This document shows, one piece after another, positions 4,936-34,130 of a stretch of DNA of 35,648 bases; positions within the stretch are counted from its first letter, which is position 1, and the number at the start of each line of letters is the position of its first letter. The stretch covers positions 1-35,648 of the forward strand of contig NZ_JAHLQE010000115.1 of NCBI RefSeq assembly GCF_018918235.1, written 5' to 3'. Both the position numbers and the translations under genes were made by a program. The stretch is from Eubacterium sp. MSJ-13 (GTDB taxonomy: Bacteria > Bacillota > Clostridia > Lachnospirales > Lachnospiraceae). The notes beneath the pieces were generated by a model. It did not search any database. It was not told the origin of the DNA and was given only the letters and a program-made list of their open reading frames with translations.

Positions 4936-7900
4936 ATGAAGAAAAACTTTAAGCGTGTTGGTGCTATAGTGCTCTCGACAGCACTTGCTTTCTCAAATGC
5001 ATCAACTTTAGTACCACAGCTTTCCTTATTTAATAGTGAAAGTATTGCAAAAGCAGCAAGCGTAACTCATATCTCAAGCTCTCCAAGCAGAGTTTCCGTA
5101 CATGATCCTTCTATTACAAAATCATCAGACGGAACATATTATGTATACGGCTCACATACAGCAGCCGCAAAATCAAATGACCTTGTAAACTGGACTAAAC
5201 TTTCAAATGACCTTAACGCAGGTGATACTTCTACTGCGACCAACAATTTCGTTTTCGGAAATATATCTAAAAATCTCAAAAAACCATTTGAATGGGCAGG
5301 TGACCACGATGCAGATGCCAGCTTTTACAATGTATGGGCTCCTGATGTTTTCTGGAATCCCGACTATGTAAATACTGACGGAACAAAGGGAGCTTATATG
5401 ATCTATTTCTGTACAAGCTCAACTGCTGTGCGCTCTGTAATCGCATTTGGTGTATCACAGAGTATCGAAGGTCCATTTGAATGTGTAGATACACTTATCT
5501 ATTCCGGCTTCACAAAAAATAAACCTGTCTTTGAGGCGGCAAAGGATACAAGCTATACAAACACAAATATTCCTGAGCTTATAAAAAACGGACAGATTGA
5601 AAAATACGATACAAACTGGTCATCAGGTGACTCATACAATAACAGCTATGCCCCAAATGCCATCGATCCTGAGATCTACTATGACAAAGAGGGTAAAATG
5701 TGGATGACATATGGCTCATGGTCAGGCGGTATCTTCACACTTGAGATTGATCCTGCAACAGGTAAAGCTAAATATCCCGGAAAAACATACACAAGAGATG
5801 ACGGTCTTTTGGTAGACCAGTATTTCGGTACGAGAATCGCAGGCGGCAAAGCAAAATCAGGCGAAGGTCCTTTCATGCTTTATGATGAAAAAACAGATTA
5901 CTTCTATTTATATGTGTCATACAACTACCTTGATTCCATAAGCGGTTATAATATGAGACTTTTCCGTTCAAAAAATCCTGACGGACCATTCGTTGATGCC
6001 GCAGGAAACAATGCAAATATGTTTGTTTCTGAAGACAAAGACCATGAAGATGTAGGTATTAAAGTTATGGGAACATACAAATTCTCATGTCTTGATAAAT
6101 ATTACAAATCAGAAGGCCACAACTCAGCCATGATAGACGATGACGGTCAGATGTACCTTATCTATCACACAAGATTCTCAGACAGCGGTGAATACCACGA
6201 GTTAAGAGTTCACCAGCAGTTCCAGAATGAAGAAGGCTGGCCTGTAACAGCACCATTTGAAAATAAGGGTGACAAGATTTCAGAAACAGGTTATGCAAAA
6301 GACGATATCGTTGGTGAGTACGAATTTATAAACCACGGAAAATCCGGCACTGCAACAGCAAAGACACAGTCAATAAAATTAAATGCTGACGGTACTATCT
6401 CAGGTGATGTGACAGGTACATGGACAGCAAAAGACGGCACTTACTATATGAACGCTGTTATCAACGGTGTAACTTATAGCGGTGTATTCTTCCTTCAGCA
6501 TGATGAGTCAGCAGAATGTAAGAAGGTAATGACATTTACTGCCATCGGCACAGACAACCAGTCTATCTGGGGAGTAAGAAAAGAAGCATACAAATATACG
6601 GATAAGGAGATACTCGAAAGAGCATCAAATGATCTTGATTACAACTGCCCTGTCCCTGCAAAAACAACTTCTGATATAACCCTTCCAACAGAAGGCTTTG
6701 ACAACTCAACCATCACATGGACTTCAAGCAATGCTGATATAATCTCAAATGAAGGAAAAGTAACAAAAGCCTCGGACGAAACAGAAGTTACACTTACCGC
6801 CGTTATAAGATCAGGCAGTGAAACAGTCACAAAAACTTATAAGACAACAGTTCTTGATGCCACACTGACACCTGATTTCAAATATGACTTTGAGACAGTA
6901 AACGACAAGACTGTACCAAGCAACGGAAAATCCACAGCAGATGCAACAATAACGGGAAATGCAAAAGTAAGCAAGGATTCATGGTACGGAAATGTACTTA
7001 CCATCAAAAACAGCAAACAGGGTGAAGGCTACTTATCACTTCCTGCCGAACTGTTCAAAAACATTGACAAATCAGGCTTCACAGTAGGAATGTGGGTTAA
7101 GACAGGCTCTGAAACATCAGATGAAACTGCATTGTTTGAGGCAAAATCAACAAACAACCGCAACAACTACCCATACACAGCACTCCATTCAAGCGTCTAT
7201 GCTGATTTTGTAAGCCTTGATGGAATAACTAAGGGTAATTACCAGTCATCATTTATAACTGGCACATGGAGTTATGTCGTTTACACTGTTTCTACAGATG
7301 GTGTCAGAACATATCTGAACGGAGATCTGATGTCAACACAGGCAACAGACCTTTCAAATGCACTCTCCGACAATAAACTTTCAGATATCGATGATATAAG
7401 AATAGGAAGTGGAACACTATCAAATAGTAACGATGTACAAAATGCCCAGTTTGACAACATTGAATTTTATTCAACTGCACTTACTGAAACTGATGTAAAA
7501 ACAAAATACAATGAAGAAAACACAGCTTATCCTTCGTTTACACTTAACACTTCTGCCTCAACACTTTATGTCGGTGGAAACACAGGAAAAACAGCTAAAC
7601 TTTCCATATCTTTAACACCATCAGTTAAAAAAGATGTAACATACACTTCATCAGACACTAAAGTTGCATCAGTAACAACAGACGGTCAGATTTCAGCAAA
7701 AAAAGCAGGAACAGCAACAATAACAGCAACAGTAACATCAGGTGATAAAACAAAGAAACTTACAAAGAAAATCACCGTAAAGAAAGCCTACATCAAATTT
7801 GCAAGCAAAAAAGCCACACTCAAAGTAAAGAAAACAGCAAAATTCAAAGTAAAAGGCTACGGTGTCAAATTATCATCAATAAAATGGACATCAAACAAAC

Positions 7901-8016
7901 CAGATGTACTTTCAGTAAATAACTCAGGAAAAGTAACAGCAAAGAAAAAAGGAACCGCTGTTGTCACAGCTAAAAGTGGAAACTTTAAAGTAACATATAA
8001 GGTCACAGTAAAATAA
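4936..8016 (+). CDS. Secreted multidomain GH43 endo-1,5-alpha-L-arabinanase-like protein
   Basis: This 1026-aa protein has a GGAGGT site 8 nt before ATG and a signal peptide (residues 1-41). The GH43 propeller (about 50-440) shows D57 (VSVHDPSI), D244 (NAIDPEIYYD) and E310 (GEGPFML), and is followed by the small C-terminal beta-barrel (about 450-560, ending NQSIWGVRKE). That layout is typical of Abn2-type endo-arabinanases. Further modules are an atypical bacterial Ig domain (about 565-645), a LamG domain (about 650-815), and two lysine-rich Big_2-like Ig domains (about 825-1026). There is no LPXTG motif. The basic C-terminal repeats may hold the enzyme at the wall (inference). The catalytic core is paralogous to the 540-aa lipoprotein at 32027. 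It probably starts extracellular arabinan cleavage. Confidence 0.87.
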   Translation: MKKNFKRVGAIVLSTALAFSNASTLVPQLSLFNSESIAKAASVTHISSSPSRVSVHDPSITKSSDGTYYVYGSHTAAAKSNDLVNWTKLSNDLNAGDTSTATNNFVFGNISKNLKKPFEWAGDHDADASFYNVWAPDVFWNPDYVNTDGTKGAYMIYFCTSSTAVRSVIAFGVSQSIEGPFECVDTLIYSGFTKNKPVFEAAKDTSYTNTNIPELIKNGQIEKYDTNWSSGDSYNNSYAPNAIDPEIYYDKEGKMWMTYGSWSGGIFTLEIDPATGKAKYPGKTYTRDDGLLVDQYFGTRIAGGKAKSGEGPFMLYDEKTDYFYLYVSYNYLDSISGYNMRLFRSKNPDGPFVDAAGNNANMFVSEDKDHEDVGIKVMGTYKFSCLDKYYKSEGHNSAMIDDDGQMYLIYHTRFSDSGEYHELRVHQQFQNEEGWPVTAPFENKGDKISETGYAKDDIVGEYEFINHGKSGTATAKTQSIKLNADGTISGDVTGTWTAKDGTYYMNAVINGVTYSGVFFLQHDESAECKKVMTFTAIGTDNQSIWGVRKEAYKYTDKEILERASNDLDYNCPVPAKTTSDITLPTEGFDNSTITWTSSNADIISNEGKVTKASDETEVTLTAVIRSGSETVTKTYKTTVLDATLTPDFKYDFETVNDKTVPSNGKSTADATITGNAKVSKDSWYGNVLTIKNSKQGEGYLSLPAELFKNIDKSGFTVGMWVKTGSETSDETALFEAKSTNNRNNYPYTALHSSVYADFVSLDGITKGNYQSSFITGTWSYVVYTVSTDGVRTYLNGDLMSTQATDLSNALSDNKLSDIDDIRIGSGTLSNSNDVQNAQFDNIEFYSTALTETDVKTKYNEENTAYPSFTLNTSASTLYVGGNTGKTAKLSISLTPSVKKDVTYTSSDTKVASVTTDGQISAKKAGTATITATVTSGDKTKKLTKKITVKKAYIKFASKKATLKVKKTAKFKVKGYGVKLSSIKWTSNKPDVLSVNNSGKVTAKKKGTAVVTAKSGNFKVTYKVTVK

Positions 8017-8037: not shown

Positions 8038-8065
8038 TTGACACTTGACACTTGACACTTGACAC
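8038..8065. repeat. Four perfect tandem copies of TTGACAC
   Basis: A 7-bp unit repeats four times without interruption, ending at the left arm of the first structured element and about 20 nt after the GH43 stop. Each copy contains TTGACA, the consensus -35 hexamer, but no convincing -10 follows. Confidence 0.85.
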
Positions 8066-8209
8066 CGGGACCGATATGGAATTTCCGACTCAGAGCCGGC
8101 TCTCGCCTCGGAGAATATCAGTAGCAGTACATAAAGGCGTAAAAAACACGCCTTAAGTACTGACTGACATTCTAAACGCTCTTCGCTGAAAATCCCATAT
8201 CGGTCCCGG
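8065..8209 (+). repeat. Structured ~144-nt element, copy I
   Basis: Perfect 15-bp outer arms (8065-8079 and 8195-8209, CCGGGACCGATATGG and complement) enclose a conserved interior. That interior contains GGCTCTCGCCTCGGAGAA, an inner stem GAATATCAGT/ACTGACATTC, CAGTAC/GTACTG, and an apical stem AAGGCGT/ACGCCTT with loop AAAAAAC. The element is followed by GCTGTTTTTTG, so it may also terminate transcription from the upstream GH43 gene. The other copies are II, III and IV. Confidence 0.8.
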
Positions 8210-8350
8210 CTGTTTTTTGTCCAAAACAACTATATTGCAATACCAATACAGTCAAGCAGATATTCGCAATGCGCTTTGCTACCTGTTCATAACACTATTA
8301 ACTGCTATCACAGTATATCAGAAGGGGCTTGTCACCCCTTAGTGTCAAAT
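8210..8350. other. Gene-free spacer between element I and the terminator
   Basis: This forms part of the 651-bp gene-free gap between the converging 8016 and 8668 gene ends. Apart from a short AAGGGG/CCCCTT hairpin (8322-8340) I see no gene or recognisable motif in it. Confidence 0.6.
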
Positions 8351-8396
8351 AATAAAGCAGAGTCAGGATATCAAATCCTCCTGACTCTGCTTTATT
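8351..8396. terminator. Bidirectional terminator between converging genes
   Basis: An 18-bp perfect stem (AATAAAGCAGAGTCAGGA with its complement) surrounds a short loop. T-rich sequence follows on the plus side, and A-rich flanks give a U tract on the minus side. It can serve the GH43 gene from the left and the ArsR-type gene from the right. Confidence 0.8.
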
Positions 8397-8492
8397 TTCC
8401 ATCTTATCAAAAAAACACACAATCTACCCTTCGCTTCCCCAATTTAACATCAAATAACACTTCGCCACCAATCGCACCAACACACACAAACA

Positions 8493-8636
8493 GCCGTTGA
8501 GGATGGATATTATGCAGCAAATGGCGTTTGAACACTGTCGGCACTCAGGGCACGTTCTCTGTGCCCTTATGTACCGCTACAGTGTTCTCCGAGGCGAGAG
8601 CCACCCATTTGTCGTATAATATCCATCCTCAACGGC
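8493..8636 (-). repeat. Structured ~144-nt element, copy II (inverted relative to copy I)
   Basis: Perfect 21-bp arms (8493-8513 and 8616-8636) are unrelated in sequence to those of copy I. Read on the minus strand, the interior again has GGCTCTCGCCTCGGAGAAC, then CGGTAC/GTGCCG and a GGGCAC/GTGCCC stem with loop AGAGAAC. GGCTGTTTGTGTG follows the right arm. The element lies just past the stop of the ArsR-type gene, but points the same way as that gene's transcription. Confidence 0.8.
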
Positions 8637-8667
8637 GTCCGTCCGCCACTCCCCCCAAAAAACCAAA

Positions 8668-9597
8668 TTATATCTCGTCCTCCGCCATCGGCGTATAACT
8701 TATCGCAACATTTATATCCTGTCCATAATTTCCAAATGACTTGCCAAAAAGTGTAAGTCCTCCCTTATGTGTTGCATTCTCATCCACACCAAGTTTAAAT
8801 CTGATATTGCTTCTGTAATCAAGATTAAAATCATTTATAGTGACATCTGATATCTTAAGTCCGTCAATAAATGTTCCTTTCCTGTTTATTACAAGAAGTT
8901 TTAGAAGTCCATACTGATTCCAGTTCTCAGGCCACCATGTCGGTGTAAAAAGACCTTTTACATCACCGAAATCTCCCGGTGATGTCCAGCATCCAAGTGG
9001 CTTGTCATTAAGATAAAACTCTATATCTGATGGCCAGTCACTATTGACTCCCGGTGCTTCTGAGCTAAGTTCCATAGTGATAGATATCTGGGTAATCTTC
9101 TGGAATCCCGGAATAAAGTTCGGTATAACATACTCAACAAAACCATTTGTAAACCAGAGAATTTCAGCATTATATCTGTCAGGATGCTCAAAATATCTCG
9201 CATCATCAACTTCTCCTATAAGAGCCTTACTTGAAGCAAGTCCACATGTAGGTGTAATTTCATAATTTGAATAATGACCAACCTTTATTTCAGTATTATA
9301 TACATTTTCATCCTCAACCTGCTTTTCAAGATCAATAACTATTCTGTCCCAATGTACAGAACATATCTTCTGATTTCCATGAACAACCGACTCCGCAGAT
9401 GTCGTAATAAGACCACAACTCTCGAGCTTTTTAATATGTCCTGTAAGTGCACCGTTAGTAATATTAAGTTTGGCCGCCAAATCCTTCATGCTCATGTTGC
9501 TGTTCTCAAGCAATATATTTAATATCTGAATCCTGACATCCGAACCCAATGCTTTAAATATTTCTAGTCCTTCATCCAATGATGTAATGTGTAACAT
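8668..9597 (-). CDS. ArsR-type HTH regulator with long C-terminal putative sugar-sensing domain
   Basis: The start at 9597 is chosen because GAGGT lies about 8 nt before this ATG; the first in-frame ATG (9654) has no site. The product is 309 aa with no signal peptide. Residues 1-90 are a winged helix: FKALGSDVRIQILNILL, then MSMKDLAAKLNITNGALTGH as the recognition region. Residues about 100-309 are beta-rich with many Trp/Phe (SDWPSDIEFYLNDKPLG, FTPTWWPENWNQYG), resembling a carbohydrate-binding beta-sandwich. Classical ArsR metal sensors are about 100 aa, and I see no metal-binding cysteine cluster. It sits next to GH127 and has several copies of the 15-bp motif upstream. It is the only recognisable transcription factor in the window, so it is the likely controller (inference). 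Confidence 0.75.
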   Translation of the reverse strand: MLHITSLDEGLEIFKALGSDVRIQILNILLENSNMSMKDLAAKLNITNGALTGHIKKLESCGLITTSAESVVHGNQKICSVHWDRIVIDLEKQVEDENVYNTEIKVGHYSNYEITPTCGLASSKALIGEVDDARYFEHPDRYNAEILWFTNGFVEYVIPNFIPGFQKITQISITMELSSEAPGVNSDWPSDIEFYLNDKPLGCWTSPGDFGDVKGLFTPTWWPENWNQYGLLKLLVINRKGTFIDGLKISDVTINDFNLDYRSNIRFKLGVDENATHKGGLTLFGKSFGNYGQDINVAISYTPMAEDEI

Positions 9598-9715
9598 TGT
9601 GTCTACCTCTTTTCCATGCAATTTTCTACTGTTTACATAATCAAGCAATAACATTCTTTTTTATTTTTTTCAATTTTAAATACAAATATTTTGAAAGCTT
9701 TTTGTTTTTATTTAC

Positions 9716-14199: not shown

Positions 14200-14425
14200 A
14201 GCAACACACCCTTTCTTACTCATATTATATTATTATGCGTAATTTTTCGCAAGCTATACCGTATTTTTTTTACGGCATTTCAGTCCCACCAATTAACATC
14301 TTTAAAAATTCCTCACATTTTTCTTTAAAACACACAAAAAAACAGCCGTATTGGATATATAGTACCAACACGACATTACTTCAAATACATCATTGATTTT
14401 TTCTTTTACATAATTTCGATACACA
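14200..14425. other. Gene-free spacer upstream of the ATPase gene
   Basis: This is AT-rich sequence with a small ACCGT/ACGGC hairpin near 14263-14277. The promoter of the defence-like pair should lie here, but I cannot pick convincing -35/-10 boxes. Confidence 0.4.
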
Positions 14426-14568
14426 GACAAACAGGGTTTATATATGTTCTGCAAGCGGCATTTTCAAACTCGCCGGCACTTACGCACCGTATTTAGGTGC
14501 GTTAGTACCGCTGCGTGTTTGTATAGCGCAAGCGTGCCGCCTAAGAACATATATAAGCCCTGTTTGTC
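14426..14568 (-). repeat. Structured ~144-nt element, copy IV (diverged)
   Basis: 25-bp arms (14426-14450 and 14544-14568) pair fully with one G-T wobble and are unrelated to the arms of the other copies. Read on the minus strand, the interior keeps the family plan: GCGGCACGCTTGCGC, CAAACACGC/GCGAGTTTG, CGGTAC/GTGCCG, and ACGCACC/GGTGCGT with loop TAAATAC. It lies between the ATPase start and the end of the small cysteine-rich gene. Confidence 0.7.
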
Positions 14569-14593
14569 GTCACTTCCCCAAGCAAAATCCCCC

Positions 14594-33649: not shown

Positions 33650-33807
33650 ACTTTCCTCCAAATATCTCCAAATAATTTTTCGGGTGTTTTTAAGTTTTTG
33701 TGCTATTTAACAAAAAATAAAATAATTTATGTTTTTATATAGTTAAATATAACAAATGGGGAGGTAAAAAGCAAGATAAAAGTTGGGGGATTTTTGAATC
33801 ATATGAC

Positions 33808-33951
33808 GCAAGGATTGGGATATGCTTTCCGACTCAGAAGCGGCTCTCGCCTCGGAGAACATCGTAACAGTACATAAGCGGGCATAATACGCCCGCTAAG
33901 TGCTGACGATGTTCTAACGTTCTTCGCTGGAAAGCATATCCCAATCCTTGC
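33808..33951 (+). repeat. Structured ~144-nt element, copy III (clearest copy)
   Basis: Perfect 23-bp outer arms lie at 33808-33830 and 33929-33951. Inside are GGCTCTCGCCTCGGAGAAC, stem GAACATCGT (33857-33865) with ACGATGTTC (33906-33914), stem CAGTAC (33868-33873) with GTGCTG (33900-33905), and apical stem AGCGGGC (33877-33883) with GCCCGCT (33891-33897) around loop ATAATAC. CTTCGCTG lies just before the right arm. GCTGTGTGTTG follows, comparable to the sequence after the right arm of the other copies. The rest of 33650-34245 holds only AT-rich spacer, the hairpin repeat and the flagellin terminator. Confidence 0.85.
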
Positions 33952-34040
33952 TGTGTGTTGAAAAAGGTTGCGATTCTAGTTTTTGTATTTATGCATTATT
34001 TGTATATTGCTTGTATCTCTGCTGATACAGGCAAGTCCCC

Positions 34041-34096
34041 ACCCCGACTTATTGCTCTATGCAGTAGAAGTGGGTGACTCCTTGATAGTGTTAAAT
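34041..34096. repeat. Bulged hairpin repeat, copy 2
   Basis: This is the same hairpin and tail as at 1-54, in direct orientation: ACTT-ATTGC, loop TCTAT, GCAGT-AG-AAGTGGG, then GACTCCTTGATAGTGTTAAA. The base of the stem is less regular than in copy 1. Confidence 0.6.
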
Positions 34097-34130
34097 TTAT
34101 CCGTCAATATATTTTTATACAATAATGTTA

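Follow-up and report, generated by a model that had tools for sequence, protein, structure and literature searches.

A MITE-like palindromic repeat family of Lachnospiraceae with a conserved core and arms that are probably homogenised by template switching

The 35,648-nt stretch of DNA from Eubacterium sp. MSJ-13 that was analysed here (contig NZ_JAHLQE010000115.1, hereafter the window) contains four copies of a palindromic element, one of which lies at 33808–33951. The element belongs to a real and widespread family, which is multi-copy and patchy in distribution and which we did not find catalogued. We consider it probable that the family represents a mobile palindromic repeat of Lachnospiraceae, similar to miniature inverted-repeat transposable elements (MITEs), with a conserved three-way-junction core and arms homogenised by template switching. 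The element is a single long palindrome, in which variable arms on the outside enclose a small side hairpin, inner stems and an apical hairpin that is conserved. Two properties of the family are surprising: the near-complete replacement of paired arms at fixed sites, and the presence of one core in elements with different ends.

Distribution of the element family

The covariance model used for the genome scans (R1) matches 20 of 28 genomes of the genus and gives zero matches in the other eight (E 0.001), with 43 matches in the genome of MSJ-13 itself (G000), 46 in G001, a relative with several sites in common, 54 in G014 and 23 in G023. The scan of Lachnospiraceae genomes that the initial annotation had proposed returned matches in 114 of the 397 genomes (species) sampled from the family, under stricter filters and with seven candidates scored per genome; the elements are common in this major lineage of the gut. 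Of 391 genomes drawn from across the class, 10 match at E 1e-5, and all 10 belong to Lachnospiraceae. Crowded genomes contain 129 (G137), 105 (G294) and 75 (G064) matches at E 1e-6, when 150 candidates are scored in each. Since R1 could pick up any long hairpin, stretches from other genomes were also read by eye, and the core was recognised, in either orientation, in 20 of 20 (including two from G001). Scanning named genomes with a pattern returned 35 stretches, which come from records titled Lachnospiraceae or its genera, with two exceptions titled 'Bacillota' (L203) and 'Clostridiales' (L210). The 35 loci behind alignment set A5 were found by the core pattern, so that core conservation in this set is biased and was not used. 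Three contigs of the MSJ-13 genome end inside a copy, which suggests that assemblies may break at these repeats.

A phage or plasmid origin was rejected: the pattern scan of viral contigs and plasmids returned no stretches, and the single trace is a 46-nt match in one unannotated phage record. Nothing in the window reaches the Rfam gathering score and nothing in the 33808 element matches Rfam at E up to 5, the single weak match lying outside this element, in line with the initial claim of a new family. No description of the family was found in the literature searched, which held few subscription papers and did not extend to preprints. A survey of human microbiomes reports 3161 candidate RNAs, 250 of which are palindromic (PMC8040213), and an overlap of the element family with these palindromic candidates is possible.

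Structure of the element

The four window copies are present in the sequence as initially annotated (8065–8209, 8493–8636, 14426–14568 and 33808–33951; 143–145 nt), together with their outer arms, their inner stems and the 7-nt apical loops, which all end in AC (ATAATAC, AAAAAAC, AGAGAAC and TAAATAC). Their RNA folds have z values of -9.8 to -12.4, and for each copy 0 of 200 shuffles folds as well as the real sequence. The helices comprise outer arms of about 23 bp (15–25 bp across copies), a 4-bp stem and a side hairpin GGC-TCTC-GCC; they further include a 9-bp inner stem extended by CAGTAC/GTGCTG and the 7-bp apical stem that carries the 7-nt loop. GGCTCTCGCCTCGGAGAA occurs at 8098 (+), 33842 (+) and 8585 (-), and the fourth copy at 14426 contains a diverged form.

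BLAST against the MSJ-13 genome returned 27 rows, including one in which the palindrome hits its own reverse, and 23 further stretches were fetched and oriented alike. Among 23 own copies, sequence is most constant within the core, which includes constant unpaired bases; its conserved apical hairpin approximates GTARCRGTAC-ATAAG-stem-ANAATAC-stem-CTAAGTRCYGAC. Applied to nine own-genome copies, a hand-drawn 52-pair structure has 95.1% of its cells formed, versus 75.8% in shuffles and only 35–41% after a slide by 1–3 columns. Two-sided changes occupy 92 cells versus 26.4 in shuffles and occur in 32 pairs versus 17.6.

The arms, which had been described as wholly different between copies, are indeed variable, but a weak common pattern emerges with more own-genome copies: many arms start with GC and contain an A/G-rich stretch. 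In most main-type copies the arms are directly preceded by ACGGACGC-like bases and directly followed by GCTG-like ones, which indicates that the arms belong inside the element.

Joint change of the two arms

Seven orthologous sites in G000 and G001 were compared. Their pairs show 35 one-sided changes, 34 two-sided changes that restore a Watson-Crick pair and 6 two-sided changes without a standard pair, whereas independent hits would yield about 9 double changes in all. Restricted to the arms, the counts are 18 one-sided and 19 two-sided changes. The orthologous elements are 72–93% identical; of their 120-nt flanks, the 5´ side (mostly gene ends) matches in 63–92% of columns and the 3´ side in 37–58%. 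These figures do not require the arms to evolve faster than neutral DNA; the salient point is the joint change of both arms. The covariation check with more copies, proposed in the initial annotation, has thus yielded strong covariation in both the nine own-genome copies and the seven orthologous pairs.

Single sites illustrate how the arms change. In L024/L097 the arms are almost wholly different and the flank matches in 101 of 126 columns, and in L030/L104 the two-sided changes extend to the apical stem as well as the arms. A cluster of neighbouring changes is present in both arms of L015/L098, and the core of L131/L095 is inverted between like flanks. The window copy at 14426 also shows compensated arm changes relative to G001. 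Among recent copies, one-sided and compensated events number 42 and 11 in G137 and 39 and 5 in G064; the cells with Watson-Crick double changes amount to 27 versus about 1 expected in G137 and 8 versus about 0.4 expected in G064. As a separate observation, one copy in the MSJ-13 genome has had its 5´ half replaced by a main-type copy (L021); the copy with the replaced half is whole in G001 (L103).

Homogenisation of repeat arms and inversion of spacers are known outcomes of template switching (PMC8604942, PMC8794818). Arm homogenisation, clustered compensated changes and inversion of the centre are likewise seen in the present family. The cases described in these papers concern yeast genes, rRNA and microRNA stems, in contrast to the 15–25 bp arms in dozens of dispersed copies observed here. 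We infer that pairing is kept mainly by a DNA polymerase that switches template on the hairpin and copies one arm from the other, and that such switching would now and then flip the centre. Since one arm would be copied from the other, arm sequence would be free while palindromy is constrained. The core may be conserved because a transposition or replication protein, or an RNA copy in a 3´ untranslated region (UTR), needs the fold.

An alternative that dispenses with special template switching is selection on the DNA hairpin alone, in which a transposase or replication protein would need the folded single strand, as is the case for other elements that transpose in single-stranded form. Such selection could account for the Watson-Crick pairing, the rarity of G-T pairs and the constant unpaired bases of the core. 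However, the clustered changes in both arms of L015/L098 and the inverted core of L131/L095 resemble template switching, and we regard this alternative as quite unlikely. Dozens of diverging yet paired arms per genome offer a natural test bed for distinguishing one-step template switching from two mutations under selection.

Mispairs and position relative to genes

An RNA stem would carry more G-U pairs than a stem maintained in DNA. For the helix-wise mispair counts, three rows were dropped from alignment A4 (a duplicate, a reverse-strand self-match and a deleted copy), as were seven rows of A5 that were partial or doubtful. With one copy per cluster, the arms contain 11 G-T and 16 A-C mispairs among 686 pairs, and the recent copies contain 25 of each. 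One core stem in G000 and G001 shows 14 G-T versus 4 A-C group events (p 0.03). A clean RNA-strand signal from G-T versus A-C was sought and not found, the results varying by helix and data set. We attribute the maintenance of palindromy mainly to processes at the DNA level, for which template switching is the simplest account; a role of the core as RNA is conceivable.

Open reading frames (ORFs) of at least 90 aa were called mechanically around 51 copies of G000 and G001. An upstream ORF was found for 49 copies; it is co-directed with the element in 37 of these, with the stop at a median distance of 26 nt, and antisense in the remaining 12. A stop faces the 5´ end of a copy within 50 nt in 30 cases and the 3´ end in 2 (p 2.5e-7, a value that is too small because four orthologous pairs are among the 51 copies). 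In the window, the 8065 copy lies 42 nt behind the plus-strand gene 4936–8016 and the 8493 copy 26 nt behind the minus-strand gene 8668–9654. This placement is absent in the two other window copies, the stop being 434 nt away at 14426 and the upstream ORF antisense at 33808. It may reflect targeting or the survival of harmless insertions.

The same placement would fit a structured RNA or 3´-UTR element, whose plus strand would be co-transcribed with the upstream gene and whose three-way junction would stabilise or regulate the message; covariation would then stem from selection on the RNA fold. The constant unpaired core bases and the G-T excess in the one core stem are also consistent with this explanation. 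Nevertheless, G-T pairs are rare in the arms and the apical stem, the arms lack a plus-strand G-T excess and show an A-C excess in other genera, Rfam gives no match, copies with transposon ends and duplications exist, and 12 of the 49 copies are antisense to the upstream ORF, which together make an RNA element unlikely. Of the two forms of selection on a fold that were initially suggested, a DNA hairpin is compatible with the data, and the almost exclusive Watson-Crick pairing of the arms does not bear out a non-coding RNA; covariation alone is no proof of RNA. An intrinsic transcription terminator would also lie behind stop codons but is scarcely credible: no T-run follows the arm (4.7 T per 12 nt versus 4.1 in the flanks; windows with at least 6 T, 20% versus 24%; 25 copies), and the 8065 and 8493 copies flank a separate terminator-like hairpin at 8351–8396.

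Element ends and mobility

G137 and G064 contain near-identical copies, arms included, at unrelated sites. A subfamily of 22 members in G000 and G001 (80% identity), the B type, has the ends TAGGTAATTGCGAAACTA..TAGTTTCGCAAAYRCCTA in recent G001 copies. Among the loci in hand, 32 elements have B-type ends (one of them, L050, may fit the loose end pattern by chance), and 14 of these are bordered by a target duplication of at least 9 bp with at most one mismatch. Twelve of the 14 duplications measure 11–15 bp as scored, a length that may count in up to three bases of the element ends. The core is present in all 12 of the latter elements, two of which come from other Lachnospiraceae metagenome-assembled genomes (L189 and L192), and in 21 of 31 elements with B-type ends when both strands are checked and L136 is left out. 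The B type is a MITE, having both terminal inverted repeats and target duplications. The initial argument that non-conserved ends speak against a transposon does not rule one out here, as the terminal repeats and target duplications of this subfamily lie outside the variable arms.

Other groups end differently. The G064 elements have the ends TAAACTG..CAGTTTA with no long duplication seen (two copies by strict pattern, others by eye), and in G137, G193 and G023 the outer palindrome runs further out and ends in GTGTCAAAAGCCC or a similar sequence. B-type and G137-type elements have a TCAATTTGCACA-like stretch in common, which lies further in. The same core therefore sits in elements whose ends look unrelated. 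G001 also contains repeats of about 65–100 bp with B-type ends and without the core, three of which have a common junction while the others differ; these may be deletion products or the pre-insertion state.

These differing ends, TAGGTAATTGCGAAACT with 11–15 bp duplications for the B type, TAAACTG..CAGTTTA for G064 and GTGTCAAAAGCCC for G137, G193 and G023, could also be explained if the core hairpin were a transferable module that makes palindromes. Flanks would be turned into palindromes and kept so by hairpin-primed or template-switched synthesis, and the core would be selected as folded single-stranded DNA. We consider this proposal speculative and rather improbable.

The initial annotation further suggested that the element inserts into the centre of pre-existing palindromes. 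This would explain why arms differ between copies and why the palindrome of G137, G193 and G023 extends further out, to other ends. Against it, constant bases flank the arms, and core and arms are copied as one unit. The genes around the window copies 8065, 8493 and 14426 are in conserved order in G001, where the 8065 and 8493 copies are absent at the matching gene distances, as far as 588 of 1539 bases are readable (951 are masked); in the readable bases the core motif is missing, and no more than 9 nt of the 8065 and 8493 arms can be recognised. Insertion into palindromes is therefore very improbable.

Several results weigh against a mobile repeat with arms homogenised by template switching. 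Independent insertions at one site could mimic both the inversion in L131/L095 and the rewritten arms in L024/L097. The recent B-type copies of G001 show 21 one-sided and 0 compensated events, without an excess of compensated cells (0 versus 0.1 expected), and eight of them have no sense bias (4 of 8). Strand symmetry of the mispairs is not general: A-C exceeds G-T when all 63 copies are counted (67 versus 17) and in the arms of other genera (44 versus 16 group events). In the main type, which is the window's own, no duplication was seen in the flanks that were read, and the ends are tentative. No partner transposase was found, and among the rows listed for G001 and G000 there is no transposase-wide end pair.

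Further arrangements of copies were observed. G137 contains head-to-tail tandem arrays with a period of about 164–187 bp (L040, L041 and L055), and in G014 oppositely oriented copies occur in pairs separated by a few hundred bases, accompanied by broken 3´-half repeats (L034–L037). The apical part of a G001 B-type copy is longer by about 130 bases, which contain further palindromes (L105 ~149–465 compared with L123 272–427), and the arms of this copy are nearly the same in G001 and the MSJ-13 genome. A tiny core-less palindrome with B-type ends is located at 19–57 of L165 (G000:C110), just before an IS200-like Y1 transposase gene.

Comparison with known repeats

Repetitive extragenic palindromic (REP) sequences and their BIME and REPIN arrangements (GTAG and CGTC families; PMC3733652) resemble the element in number and position, the 3´ end of ORFs being the site of the element in G000 and G001 too. 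Some REPs supply the stop codon of an ORF, according to that paper, and the G064 copies seem to do likewise: the distance from the upstream TAA to the core is exactly 65 nt in 10 of 19 copies and 66 nt in one. In contrast to REPs, which are described there as 20–40 bp with a GTAG or CGTC tag, the element has a unit of about 145–215 bp or more (143–145 nt for the window copies) and a three-way junction. Mobilisation by RAYT proteins was rejected as well, as PF01797 is absent from G001 (46 matches) and G023 (23) and present in the match-free G009, G011 and G018. Both the size of its unit and its missing linkage to Y1 transposases place the element outside the REP family. MITEs are likewise non-coding, with terminal inverted repeats and target duplications that are found here in the B type only; the element differs from them in its variable palindromic arms, its conserved core and ends that differ between genera.

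Copies in the window

The features of the four window copies are summarized in Table 1.

Table 1. Element copies and substructures in the window. The strand is the orientation of the core; fold energies are for RNA, in kcal/mol, and z values are from 200 shuffles per copy.
Feature	Position	Strand	R1 (bits)	Fold energy	Fold z	Remarks
Element copy (33808) with adjoining outside bases	33802..33957	+	176	-82.7	-11.8	
Arms of the 33808 copy	33808-33830 and 33929-33951	+				From the fold
Small side hairpin GGC-TCTC-GCC of the 33808 copy	33842..33851	+				From the fold
Apical stem and 7-nt loop ATAATAC of the 33808 copy	33877..33897	+				From sequence and fold
Element copy (8065)	8058..8216	+	152.6	-66.9	-9.8	Perfect outer arm, 8065-8079 pairs with 8195-8209
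Element copy (8493)	8487..8642	-	164.3	-84.5	-12.4	Arms 8616-8636 and 8493-8513
Diverged element copy (14426)	14420..14574	-	87.8	-79.9	-12.2	Same place occupied in G001

Other repeats adjoin these copies. At 8038–8065, TTGACAC is repeated four times head-to-tail and runs directly into the 5´ arm of the 8065 copy. The terminator-like hairpin at 8351–8396 has the arms AATAAAGCAGAGTCAGGA..TCCTGACTCTGCTTTATT and lies between the convergent copies 8065 and 8493. In the 3´ flank of the 33808 copy, a second repeat that is unrelated to the element (~34009–34098) matches the 3´ flanks of L012 and L020 at 81–83% over about 90 nt.
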